A stretch of DNA of 64,000 nucleotides from Streptomyces sp. WMMB 322 (lineage in GTDB: Bacteria; Actinomycetota; Actinomycetes; Streptomycetales; Streptomycetaceae): assembly GCF_900090145.1 (NCBI RefSeq), contig NZ_FMHI01000016.1, positions 1 to 64,000 on the forward strand, given 5' to 3'. Shown one piece after another: positions 49,586 through 54,709 of this stretch. The notes under the pieces are model-generated. The model saw only the letters and a program-made list of their open reading frames with translations. It was not told the DNA's origin and did no database searches. How positions within the stretch are numbered: position 1 is the first letter of the stretch; each line of letters starts with the position of its first letter. A program made the translations under genes and the position numbers.

Positions 49586-50053
49586 GTGAAAACCGAGATC
49601 GCCCCGACCGAAATCAGCGCTCCCGTCCACGAGTTCGCGCAGCTGTTCAGTTCGACTCCCCGTGGTGCCCGGCTCGCCCGTCTGATGGGAACCGAACAAC
49701 TGGCGGCGTGGGGCTGGCCGTACGACGACGAGGTCTCCCGGACGGGCACGCTGCTCATCGCGGAACTGGCCGCCAACGCCGCCACGCACGGCCGTGTGCC
49801 AGGACGCAGCTTCCGGTTGCGCCTGCTGACCGGCCCCGGTCTGCTGCTGCCCGGCACCCTCCGGATCGAAGTCGCCGATGCGCGGGACGAGTTCGGGGCC
49901 ATGGCGCCCGAACCGCTCGCGCCGGACGCCGAGTCGGGCCGCGGCCTACTGCTCGTCGACTCGCTCGCGCACCGCTGGGGCGTCTCCCCGAGGGACCCGT
50001 CGGGGAAGACGGTGTGGGCCGAGCTGAGTCTCGGCGCGGCCGGCGGTCTGTGA
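49586..50053 (+). CDS. RsbW-like ATP-binding protein (HATPase_c_2)
   Basis: A 155-residue single-domain protein of the anti-sigma-factor-like ATPase group. The N-box is LIAELAANAATHG, and the G1/G2 region is RIEVADARDEFG and ESGRGLLLVDSLAHRWGV. The GTG at 49586 is the first start fitting the domain and lies 10 nt after a GACACT hexamer. Divergent orientation from XRE/DUF397 is the typical arrangement in streptomycetes, where the three form a small regulatory unit. It may bind and hold a sigma factor or anti-anti-sigma factor; none is adjacent. Confidence 0.85.
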   Translation: MKTEIAPTEISAPVHEFAQLFSSTPRGARLARLMGTEQLAAWGWPYDDEVSRTGTLLIAELAANAATHGRVPGRSFRLRLLTGPGLLLPGTLRIEVADARDEFGAMAPEPLAPDAESGRGLLLVDSLAHRWGVSPRDPSGKTVWAELSLGAAGGL

Positions 50054-50193: not shown

Positions 50194-52279
50194 GTGGCCG
50201 GGTTCGACCCGCAACACTTCTCGCTGATCAACGACGAACCCGTCACCGACGCGCAAGGGGATCTGCTGGGCGCCCGCGACCCCGCCGCGCAACTCGCCAA
50301 GCTGCTGGTCGACTCCCGCCGTTCCACGCCCCTCACCCTGGCGGTCGACGCCGGATGGGGGACGGGCAAGAGCAGCCTGATGCGCCTGGTGGACACGGAG
50401 TTGACGCAGGTCCACGGAGTGCGCACGGTCTGGTACAACGCCTGGACCTCGACCGGCGCGGACGTCCTCGAAGGTCTGATCAAGTCGGTTCTGATGCGTT
50501 TCGACAAACGGGTCCTGCGCCGGACCGTCCCAGCGCATCTCCGACCGCGGGACCCTCCTGAGACTGATCCGCGCCTCGTTCCTGCTGGCAGGCGGCCTGT
50601 TCGGGCTGAGCCCCATGGTGAACGAGCTGTGGAAGGGAATGTCCGGGAGCCCGCAGGCCCGTAACGAGATGCGGGACGCGATCAGGGAAGCGGTGCGGGA
50701 GCGGGTCGAGACCGGCGAGTTCTCGCCCAAGCAGCTTCTGGTCGTCTTCATCGACGACCTGGACCGCTGCTCGGAGGAGACGGTTCTCGCGGTGTGCGAG
50801 GCCGTGAAGGTGTATCTGGACGTGCCCGGCGTGGCGTTCGTCATCGGGTGCGACCGCTCGGCGCTCGCATCCAACGGTCTGCTGCGCGACCTGTCGCCCG
50901 CCGGGTCGGCGTTCATGGAGAAGATCTTCCAGACGACCTACCGGATTCCCGTGCCGGACGGTACGGGAATCGAGGACTTCATCCACCGCTGTGCCCAGCG
51001 GTCCGGCATCCAGCCGGTGCTGAACGCCGACGTGGTCTCCGTGATCGCCGAGCGCTCCGGGCGCAATCCGCGGCGGATCAAGAAGCTCATCAACGGGTTC
51101 GTGCTGGAGGTCGGACTCAACCCGCTGTGGCGGGACTTCGTGCGCGAGGACGCGCGAAGCGTGGTCAGCACCCTGGTGCTCCAGCACTTCTACACCGACT
51201 TCTACCGGATGCTGGTCGACAGCGGAAGCGACGCCGCCAGCCCCTTCGGCGACGTCCTCACCGAGTTCCAGACCTACCGCAAAGTCCGCCTCCGGCTTCG
51301 GCTGCGGCCCCGCCAGGTGGAGGACGGCGTAGCGAGCGACGAGGAGGTCTCGCGCTTCTTCGCGCAGCACGAGGTGCGGCAGCCCTCGCTCACCGACACG
51401 GACACCTGGAGCGAGAACCTGGAGGAGCTGGAGCGGGAACTGCCCAGAGAATTCCCGGTCCTGGTCGCCGACCGCGGATTCACCTCGCTCGTCGACGAGT
51501 TGGAGCGGCAGCCCCGGTACGAGGAGCTGATCCAGCGACTGCGTCAGCGCCCCTCGCCGGTCGACGAGCTGGAGCAGCCGCAGGCGTACGGGCAGGTGAT
51601 CCAGTCGCTGTGGCAGCAGCAACTGCGCCCCACCGCGGAACAAGGCGCACCGGTGCCGGCTCAGCAGTACCAGGGCGCGTACCAGCCGCAGCCCTACCCG
51701 GGCTCGCCGTACCCGGGGCCCCCGTATCCGGTGTCCCCCTACTCGGCGTCCCCGTACTCGGGCCCCTCGTACCCGGGGTCCCCGTACCCGGGGTCCCCGT
51801 ACCCGGTGCCTCAGTACGGGGCCGAGCCTCCCCTCTCGGACCTTTCGAGGGCACGCGCCGCCCAACCACTCGCGGACATGCGCATCCTGTGGATCGACGA
51901 CAACCCTGCCAGTGTCGAGACGGAGGCCCAGGCGATGCGCCGGGCGGGGGCGTCCGTCGAGGTGGTCGAGAACCGGGCGGAGGCGGAGCGGCAGCTCGCG
52001 GCCGGTGACCACGATCTGCTGATCTCCGACATCGCGCGCGGCGCGGGCCGCGAGGCCGGGTTCAACGATGCCGAAGGTCTCCGCCGCGGCGACTACTACA
52101 AGGGCCCCCTGATCTTCTACACGGGCCGGGTCACCCCGGCGCGGCAGGCACAGGCCGAGCAGCTGGACGCGGGGATCACGGCGAGCCCGGACAAGCTGCA
52201 GCAGCTCGTCGCCGACGCCGCTCAGGAGCGCCGGTCGCGGACGTCTCCGGCGGCCGGGCCCGGCGACTCGACCGCGTAG
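50194..52279 (+). pseudogene. KAP-family P-loop NTPase fused to receiver-like domain, frameshifted
   Basis: Two adjacent frames encode one protein. The first (GTG at 50194, GGGGGG upstream) has KAP Walker A AGWGTGKSS with lysine 59 and WYNAWTSTGADVLEGLIKS, then loses similarity near FDKRVLRR and stops at 50664. The other frame resumes with a hydrophobic segment (LIRASFLLAGGLFGL), Walker B VVFIDDLDRC and DRSALASNG. Removing one C from CCC at 50529-50531 restores a continuous protein of about 694 residues. A Tyr/Pro linker (about 500-540) joins the NTPase to a receiver-like domain (562-685; ILWIDDNP, LLISDIARG, IFYTGR). KAP proteins include PifA, which excludes phage T7. Membrane-linked defence or signalling is plausible. 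The frameshift is either real decay or a sequencing error. Confidence 0.82.
51695..51814 (+). repeat. eight tandem 15-bp repeats encoding a Tyr/Pro linker
   Basis: Eight pentapeptides (YPGSP, YPGPP, YPVSP, YSASP, YSGPS, YPGSP, YPGSP, YPVPQ) are encoded by related 15-bp units such as TACCCGGGGTCCCCG. In-frame copy changes would alter linker length without breaking the frame. Confidence 0.9.
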
Positions 52280-52600: not shown

Positions 52601-54709
52601 ATGTCTCAACTGGACCGTGGCGGTCCGGCGGTTCCGCCTGTCAGCCCTGGGCCGGGGTGGCCGACGACTCCGCCTCCGCACCGGCCGCTGGGGACCGGCG
52701 ATCCGCGCGAGGCCGGTCCGTACCGGCTGGAGGCGGTGCTGGGTGCGGGCGGGATGGGCCGTGTGTACCTGGGGCGTACACCGGCGGGCAGTGAGGTGGC
52801 GGTCAAGCTCGTGCACCGCGAGTACGCGGGTGACCGGGCCTTCCGCAAGCGCTTCGAGCAGGAGGTGGCCGCCGCCGGGCGGGTCCAGGGGCTGTACACC
52901 GTGCCGGTGGTCGACGCGGACCTTCAGGCCGAGGAGCCCTGGCTGGCCACGGCCTACGTTCCCGGGCCGTCGTTGCAGGACGCCGTGGACGACGAGGGTC
53001 CGCTGCCGGAGGCGGCGGCGCTGGGTCTTGTCGCCAAGGTGGCCGAGGCCCTGCAGTCCATCCATGCCGCCGGTGTGATCCACCGTGACCTGAAGCCTTC
53101 CAACATCATCCTCACCGCCGAGGGGCCCAAGGTCATCGACTTCGGCATCGCGCGGGCCGCGGACGTCACCTCGGTGACCGGTACGGGAATGCGCGCGGGA
53201 ACGCCCGGGTACATGGCGCCCGAGTACATCCGCGGGCATGAACTGACCGAAGCCGTCGACGTCTTCGCCCTCGGACTCGTCGCGCACTTCGCAGTCACCG
53301 CACGCCTCGCCTTCGGCGGCGGCAGCGCCCACGGCGTCACCTACCGCATCCTCGAACAGGAACCCGACCTCGACGGCTGCCCCGCGCCCGTCCGCACGGT
53401 CGCCGCGCGCTGCCTGGCGAAGGACCCGCAGCAGCGACCCGACCCCGCCGCCGTCATCCAGCTCTGTCGCGGGAATCCGGCGCCGGAAGCGACCGTCGTC
53501 GACGTCCACTCTGCTCCGACCCGGCCCGCCCACTCCGCGGTGCCCGCGCCGCCTCCGACGAAGCAGGACCCGGAAGAGGCGGCACCGTCCCGGCCGGCGA
53601 GCCCTTCCCCGCCGGTCGGGTACTCCCCGTTCGCCGCCCTTGCCGCGCCCTTGCGGAGAGGGCGAGGCGGCGCAGGGGCAGGCGGGGTCGTCCTCGGGCT
53701 CGTCCTCGTTCTGGCCGTCGTACTCACCGTCTTCCTCGTGCCCTGGGGCGGCACCGGCGGGGACTCGCCTCCCTGGCTGAAGCCCACGGTCACGCTCACG
53801 GGCCCCGGGGACTCGGCCGCGGACGTGGCGTTCAGCCCGGACGGCAGGACGCTCGCCGCAGGCGTTCAGCAGGGCAAGTTGCGGCTGTGGGACGTGGCGA
53901 CCCGCAAGCAGCGCGCCACCCTCGAGCAGCGCGACGAACGCGGCGAGGAGCAGCTCCAGAGGATTTCCTCCGTCGAGTTCAGCCCCGACGGCAAGGTGCT
54001 CGCCGGAGCGGCCGGCGACCACACGGTGGGACTGTGGGACCTGGCCGGGCGCCGACAGGTCGCCACCTTCGAGGCGAGCCCCACGGATCAGGTCAGGGAC
54101 ATCGCGTTCAGCCCGGACGGCAAGGTCCTCGCCACCGGCAGCGAGGACGGCAAGGTGCGGCTGTGGGACGTAGACAGCAGCGAGACCCGCCGCATCGCCA
54201 CACTGGATCACGGCCAGCCGGTGTGGAACGTCGTCTTCAGCCCGGACGGCGGGACGGTGGCGTCCGCGGCCTACGACCCCGCCGGCAGCTCCCTGCACAC
54301 GGCGATGCTGTGGGACGTGGCCGACCACACATCCGCCCACGCCCTCCGCCATCCCAAGAGTGTCGCCGGTGTGGCGTTCGGCAAGGACGGCACCACCCTG
54401 TTCACCGTCGGTTCGGACGACAGGATCAGACAGTGGGACGTGAACAGCGGCCGTGAAAAAGACCCCTTGGCCGAAGGCGGATTCACCTCCGCGGACGGCG
54501 TCGTCTCCAGCTCGGACGGCAAGACGCTCGCGACCTTCGCGTGGACCGAGGCGCGGCTGTGGAATCCGGACGACGGAACACCGCGGGCCGTCCTGACGGG
54601 CCACAAGGACAGCGTGGAGAGCGTGGCCGTCAGTCCGGGGGGCGGGCTCGTCGCGACCACGGCGAGGGACGGCAAGCTGCGCATGTGGAAGGTCCCGAAG
54701 GCCGGTTGA
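52601..54709 (+). CDS. membrane Ser/Thr protein kinase with extracellular WD40 propeller
   Basis: A 702-residue Hanks-type kinase. The kinase domain (about 40-300) has GAGGMGRVYLGR, catalytic Lys69 (VAVKLV), HRDLKPSN with Asp163, DFG with Asp180 and the activation-loop end GTPGYMAPEYIRG. A Pro-rich linker leads to one transmembrane helix (about 362-384), placing the rest outside. Seven WD40 blades follow (AFSPDG and LRLWDV motifs repeat), enough for a closed propeller that could sense a ligand or protein outside the cell. GGGGGAGAGG upstream supports the ATG at 52601. No phosphatase or substrate gene is adjacent. This is one of the longer bacterial eukaryote-like kinases, with a complete sensor in one chain. 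Confidence 0.92.
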   Translation: MSQLDRGGPAVPPVSPGPGWPTTPPPHRPLGTGDPREAGPYRLEAVLGAGGMGRVYLGRTPAGSEVAVKLVHREYAGDRAFRKRFEQEVAAAGRVQGLYTVPVVDADLQAEEPWLATAYVPGPSLQDAVDDEGPLPEAAALGLVAKVAEALQSIHAAGVIHRDLKPSNIILTAEGPKVIDFGIARAADVTSVTGTGMRAGTPGYMAPEYIRGHELTEAVDVFALGLVAHFAVTARLAFGGGSAHGVTYRILEQEPDLDGCPAPVRTVAARCLAKDPQQRPDPAAVIQLCRGNPAPEATVVDVHSAPTRPAHSAVPAPPPTKQDPEEAAPSRPASPSPPVGYSPFAALAAPLRRGRGGAGAGGVVLGLVLVLAVVLTVFLVPWGGTGGDSPPWLKPTVTLTGPGDSAADVAFSPDGRTLAAGVQQGKLRLWDVATRKQRATLEQRDERGEEQLQRISSVEFSPDGKVLAGAAGDHTVGLWDLAGRRQVATFEASPTDQVRDIAFSPDGKVLATGSEDGKVRLWDVDSSETRRIATLDHGQPVWNVVFSPDGGTVASAAYDPAGSSLHTAMLWDVADHTSAHALRHPKSVAGVAFGKDGTTLFTVGSDDRIRQWDVNSGREKDPLAEGGFTSADGVVSSSDGKTLATFAWTEARLWNPDDGTPRAVLTGHKDSVESVAVSPGGGLVATTARDGKLRMWKVPKAG

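Follow-up and report, generated by a model that had tools for sequence, protein, structure and literature searches.

What is a protein that joins a KAP-family NTPase to a receiver domain, and what might such a protein do? The question is raised by a gene at positions 50194 to 52279 of the window, the 64,000-nucleotide stretch of Streptomyces sp. WMMB 322 DNA analyzed here, in which a first-pass annotation had recognized a KAP NTPase followed by a C-terminal receiver-like domain. Our results bear out this order of domains: PF07693 (KAP_NTPase) scored above its cut-off of 20 bits in both pieces of the gene, the receiver (REC) fold was confirmed, and the same order was found at 33 loci.

A KAP-REC gene divided between two frames

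The features of the gene are as follows.

50194-52279, forward strand: broken KAP-REC gene (GTG start at 50194, stop at 52277-52279), a single gene spread over two frames
50194-50529, forward strand: N-terminal KAP NTPase piece, first frame (PF07693, 39 bits; family profile positions 5-110)
50353-50376, forward strand: Walker A, GWGTGKSS, read from the sequence and conserved in the family
50527-50534, forward strand: displacement of the reading frame by one base; profile matches switch frame between 50529 and 50531, and relatives are continuous
50531-51560, forward strand: remaining KAP NTPase and C-terminal helical region, second frame (PF07693, 61.5 bits; predicted fold of a homologue resembles RdrA and ORC/Cdc6)
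50735-50767, forward strand: Walker B, LLVVFIDDLDR, with DDLDR invariant in 33/33 aligned members
51695-51814, forward strand: linker of eight YPGSP-type pentapeptides, a 15-bp tandem repeat (TRF score 140, period 15), unconserved in the family
51878-52231, forward strand: C-terminal pseudo-receiver (REC) domain (PF00072, E 7e-6; family profile to position 597; homologue fold with Z 17.8 to the PmrA receiver)
51896-51901, forward strand: REC acidic pair, from active-site counts in the alignment
52028-52030, forward strand: REC acceptor-site Asp codon, from active-site counts; no lysine in the domain's catalytic place

The N-terminal piece contains the GTG start, the motif SLINDEPV (SLLNDEPV being the N-terminal motif common to the KAP-REC family), Walker A and a NAW motif. 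Family profile positions 5-110 matched 50212-50529 and positions 111-597 matched 50531-52231; because these positions are contiguous across the two frames, only one base of register separates the pieces, near 50530. All motifs downstream of the break are intact in the window copy. Homologues read continuously across the same place, which rules out a programmed frameshift as a feature of the family. Among 60 relatives, a search at the DNA level for a close same-species copy found none, the nearest being 71-74% identical. Unless an assembly error, rather than a real mutation, accounts for the break, the whole protein is probably not made in this strain. The gene is the sole KAP gene found in this 6.6-Mb genome, and other broken copies were seen in the family, at L039 (KAP and REC in different frames) and L050 (truncated).

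Distribution and evolution of the fusion

The first-pass annotation had proposed looking for the same domain order in actinobacteria, and in a scan of one genome per species we found KAP and REC in one open frame at 33 loci. The carriers are Streptomyces, Actinacidiphila, Streptacidiphilus, Amycolatopsis, Saccharopolyspora, Actinopolyspora, Phytohabitans and one actinomycete MAG, so that the fusion spans Streptomycetaceae, Pseudonocardiaceae and relatives. No REC domain was found in 40 more distant KAP loci (L055-L094), and the 98 genomes examined from the class contained no full-length fusion outside this one. Within Streptomyces the gene is patchy: apart from this one, 7 of the 60 species sampled have it. 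The closest relatives of the window gene are Streptomyces copies, L024 being the nearest.

About 20 Streptomyces and relatives have the gene at a common site, between an aminotransferase and a D-aminoacylase gene, and in at least four genomes without KAP-REC two genes that border it at this site lie close together, with no room for it. The window copy and L024 are both away from this site; in this genome the aminotransferase gene is found on a different contig. Taken together, the patchiness, the fixed site and the empty sites indicate an accessory gene that has been gained and lost and is for the most part passed on in place. Streptomyces sp. HPF1205 has two KAP-receiver genes: L033, whose receiver is degenerate, occupies the common site, and L024 lies elsewhere.

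The annotation had also made the Tyr/Pro pentapeptide linker a titular feature. The eight pentapeptides are indeed present in the window copy, yet the linkers of relatives are of other sequence and length, either Pro-rich or almost absent, and the linker is the fastest-changing part of the protein. Being unconserved, the Tyr/Pro linker is incidental, a tether and not a defining part, and we discarded it as the defining feature of the family. The two domains themselves differ in rate: in six independent pairs, dN of REC was 1.5-5.5 times that of KAP, with dS similar in five of the six, and dN/dS was 0.15-0.37 for KAP and 0.25-0.80 for REC. The faster evolution of REC suits a sensing or partner-binding arm, and relaxed constraint would look alike.

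Other heads occur on related KAP domains. At L049 (8474-11365) and L051 (8186-11467), a ClpC-like front half (Clp_N, AAA and AAA_lid_9 with a UVR motif) is fused to KAP, and at L053 (8846-11401) the front carries AAA and AAA_lid_9 with a UVR motif, Clp_N being confined to the first two. In these three proteins, from Actinocrispum, Mycolicibacterium and Crossiella, KAP sits at the place of ClpC's second AAA ring. A sister clade with ClpC-type domains before KAP suggests that the KAP engine has been combined with different heads. A further related KAP protein, in Amycolatopsis (L052:9575-11467), ends in an apparent zinc ribbon (CSTCGSSV...CGSCGAY) and has no receiver.

The ATPase and the pseudo-receiver

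PF07693 was above cut-off, and both Walker A and the DDLDR Walker B were present, in 33/33 aligned members. The Walker motifs and the overall profile are thus those of the KAP P-loop NTPases (PF07693; PifA, QatA, Tmn, Kidins220), from which the KAP-REC protein differs in adding a C-terminal receiver, in having no clear transmembrane pair in its insertion, and in standing alone, with no Qat partners as far as seen. A structure model was made for the homologue L024 (pLDDT 84; 84 also for the KAP part alone). The closest solved fold to its KAP part is RdrA of RADAR (Z 17.1, rmsd 5.2, 321 residues, 12% identity), followed by archaeal ORC2 and Cdc6 (Z 15.8-15.4). When a solved KAP structure was sought by sequence, each of the 60 matches listed was a receiver, and one was a designed protein. 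RdrA is an AAA+ ATPase that assembles as a heptamer; helices are inserted after its second and third strands, and its C-terminal lobe is helical (PMC9994260). The L024 model has a comparable run of helices, residues 89-172, between its second and third strands. The two proteins share the ATPase fold, the helices inserted after the second core strand and the helical nature of the C-terminal lobe, a similarity that does not imply the same function; KAP-REC differs in its low identity, its much shorter C-terminal part and the receiver at its end.

The stretch formed by these helices is where KAP proteins may carry transmembrane segments inserted in the NTPase domain, a family trait to which the title of Aravind 2004 (cited in PMC11846954) refers and which is typical, not universal. 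The first-pass annotation had accordingly called this one membrane-associated and a possible membrane switch, a suggestion that our results do not uphold. The two most hydrophobic helices of the insertion are about 12 residues long and modeled at low confidence, and the best 19-residue hydropathy there is mostly 1.3-2.1, which is borderline; membrane insertion, though conceivable, is therefore unsupported, and a classic transmembrane KAP protein is backed by neither hydropathy nor the model. As part of the joint explanation given below, and at the same roughly even level of confidence, the KAP part may be a soluble, AAA+/Cdc6-like ATPase whose C-terminal region is helical.

Response_reg (PF00072) matched the C-terminus of the window copy below its curated cut-off (E 7e-6), and matched 28/33 homologues, with a best value of 4.7e-18. 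The expectation that this part would adopt a REC fold was confirmed with the L024 model, whose residues 482-604 matched receivers at Z 16-18, among them PmrA (Z 17.8, rmsd 1.8, 119 residues) and RssB (Z 17.2). The receiver of RssB, a ClpXP adaptor, was ranked top by Foldseek (7lcm, E 1.8e-4), though its Z is tied with those of many others.

As the annotation had noted, the receiver retains the acidic pair and an aspartate and lacks the lysine. In the window copy the pair and the acceptor Asp are present (D, D, D), and they are kept in 30/33 aligned members, while the catalytic lysine at the end of the fifth strand is absent in 33/33, with none in the four columns there. The Ser/Thr catalytic position is filled in 24/33 members (22 Thr, 2 Ser), Arg at Asp+3 is kept in 30/33, and a basic residue (Arg, Lys or His) is found at Thr+2 in 29/33. 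A 2025 review (PMC12632262) defines five catalytic residues in receivers, and by the definition of a pseudo-receiver from the same source, the missing lysine makes this domain one. The receivers of L031, L033 and L036 have lost the acidic pair and the Asp, and those of L031 and L036 are also without Arg at Asp+3; with three such members, phosphorylation cannot be a mechanism common to the family. A receiver that has lost the lysine can in some cases still be phosphorylated, and a pseudo-receiver that keeps its Asp may be phosphorylated slowly (PMC12632262). Judging from sequence conservation, the arginines close to the former phosphorylation pocket could accommodate a phosphate group or some other anion. 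In Streptomyces catenulae, a KAP protein at L022 (9947-12469) has two receivers in tandem.

Atypical response regulators or pseudo-receivers are known in Streptomyces from BldM, WhiI and JadR1 (PMC12632262), which, like KAP-REC, have a receiver fold without one of the five catalytic residues. KAP-REC differs from these in having lost the lysine while keeping the Asp and the acidic pair, and in having an N-terminal ATPase as output rather than a DNA-binding domain. The annotation knew of no standard system with this order of domains, and our search agrees: the open-access literature yielded no description of a KAP-receiver fusion, subscription papers being outside the search. KAP and REC are each well known, and what is new is their combination and its conservation.

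Genomic context and possible functions

The window gene is adjoined by a gene for a HATPase_c_2 protein (49586-50053) and followed by one for a Ser/Thr kinase with WD40 repeats (about 52602-54709), neither of which is kept beside relatives; a solute-binding protein and other ordinary-looking genes are also near. No conserved operon partner, including a histidine kinase, and no defence island was found beside the KAP-REC loci. For 100 neighbours in 13 loci, the PADLOC matches listed were scattered singles, mostly from one protein matching many PD-T4-6 kinase models, and Pfam identified acetyltransferases, transporters and dehydrogenases. QatB, QatC and QatD were absent from the 25 PADLOC families listed for these neighbours, and no RdrB partner was seen in the surroundings of the KAP-REC gene.

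The explanation that we favor, and to which we give about an even chance, is that KAP-REC is an orphan AAA+-type ATPase, proposed to work as a ring or assembly, that is gated or targeted by a pseudo-receiver sensing a partner or ligand. By the similarity of its predicted fold, the KAP part may form a multi-subunit ring or assembly, as do RdrA and QatA, the latter a KAP protein reported to be a DNA-binding 7-8-mer (PMC13279940). Its lack of the lysine, its conserved arginines and its faster evolution suggest that the pseudo-receiver would act on its flexible tether as a sensing or targeting arm. It might take up an anionic ligand or dock a partner protein in or close to the former phosphorylation pocket, where the two arginines are conserved, and this binding would gate assembly or the ATP cycle, in place of efficient phosphotransfer from a histidine kinase.

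Three other readings draw on some of the same observations. The acidic pair and Asp of most members, and the fact that loss of the lysine need not abolish phosphorylation, could indicate an ordinary response regulator with an unusual output, whose Asp is phosphorylated by a histidine kinase and whose ATPase responds; we regard this as very doubtful, given that the lysine is absent throughout, that three members have no Asp, and that no kinase gene is conserved nearby. The occurrence of Clp_N, AAA and AAA_lid_9 ahead of KAP in the nearest REC-less relatives (L049 and L051), together with RssB among the top receiver matches, could point instead to an AAA+ protein-remodelling machine with the receiver as a client- or adaptor-binding head, comparable to the adaptor receiver of RssB or the N-domain of ClpC. 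However, we identified neither a pore loop or ClpP-binding loop nor a partner protease, and the similarity to RssB is unspecific, which leaves this reading decidedly unlikely.

The RdrA-like fold and the patchiness make a single-gene anti-phage protein a fair, if itself rather unlikely, alternative. In such a protein the receiver, with its fast evolution, would sense a phage product, and the KAP ATPase would either be the effector or drive it. The PADLOC models of QatA, PifA and PDC-S20 score against the KAP part in 33/33 members, and a gene gained or lost at one fixed site of the chromosome, broken in several copies (L039, L050 and the window gene) and carrying a fast-evolving arm would be consistent with defence. 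On the other hand, these scores are partial and far under family level (54.1 bits for the QatA NCBIfam equivalog, whose cut-off is 600), its neighbours are ordinary metabolic genes with only scattered generic matches to defence models, in about 20 Streptomyces it lies at one conserved housekeeping site, and a dedicated toxic effector domain is absent; genomic context thus lends defence no support. The kinship with PifA suggested in the annotation holds insofar as the KAP part resembles QatA, PifA and RdrA, but the full-length PifA profile matched L024 over positions 5-261 of 720, the N-terminal third only. A bolder idea, which we consider unlikely, is that this KAP clade is a general ring ATPase engine that actinomycetes equip with exchangeable heads, a phosphorylation-independent receiver here and a ClpC-type front half in the sister clade; the receiver, evolving fast, would detect a signal of phage or stress and so trigger the engine.

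For Streptomyces sp. WMMB 322 itself the fusion matters less, because the one KAP gene identified in its genome is this broken copy. Its interest lies in the family: how pseudo-receivers are switched on and off was called an open question in the 2025 review (PMC12632262), and in a pseudo-receiver wired to an ATPase, ATP turnover or assembly would be a measurable output for asking what the pseudo-receiver senses. Should that signal prove to be a phage product, the KAP/RADAR group would gain a defence system made of a single gene.
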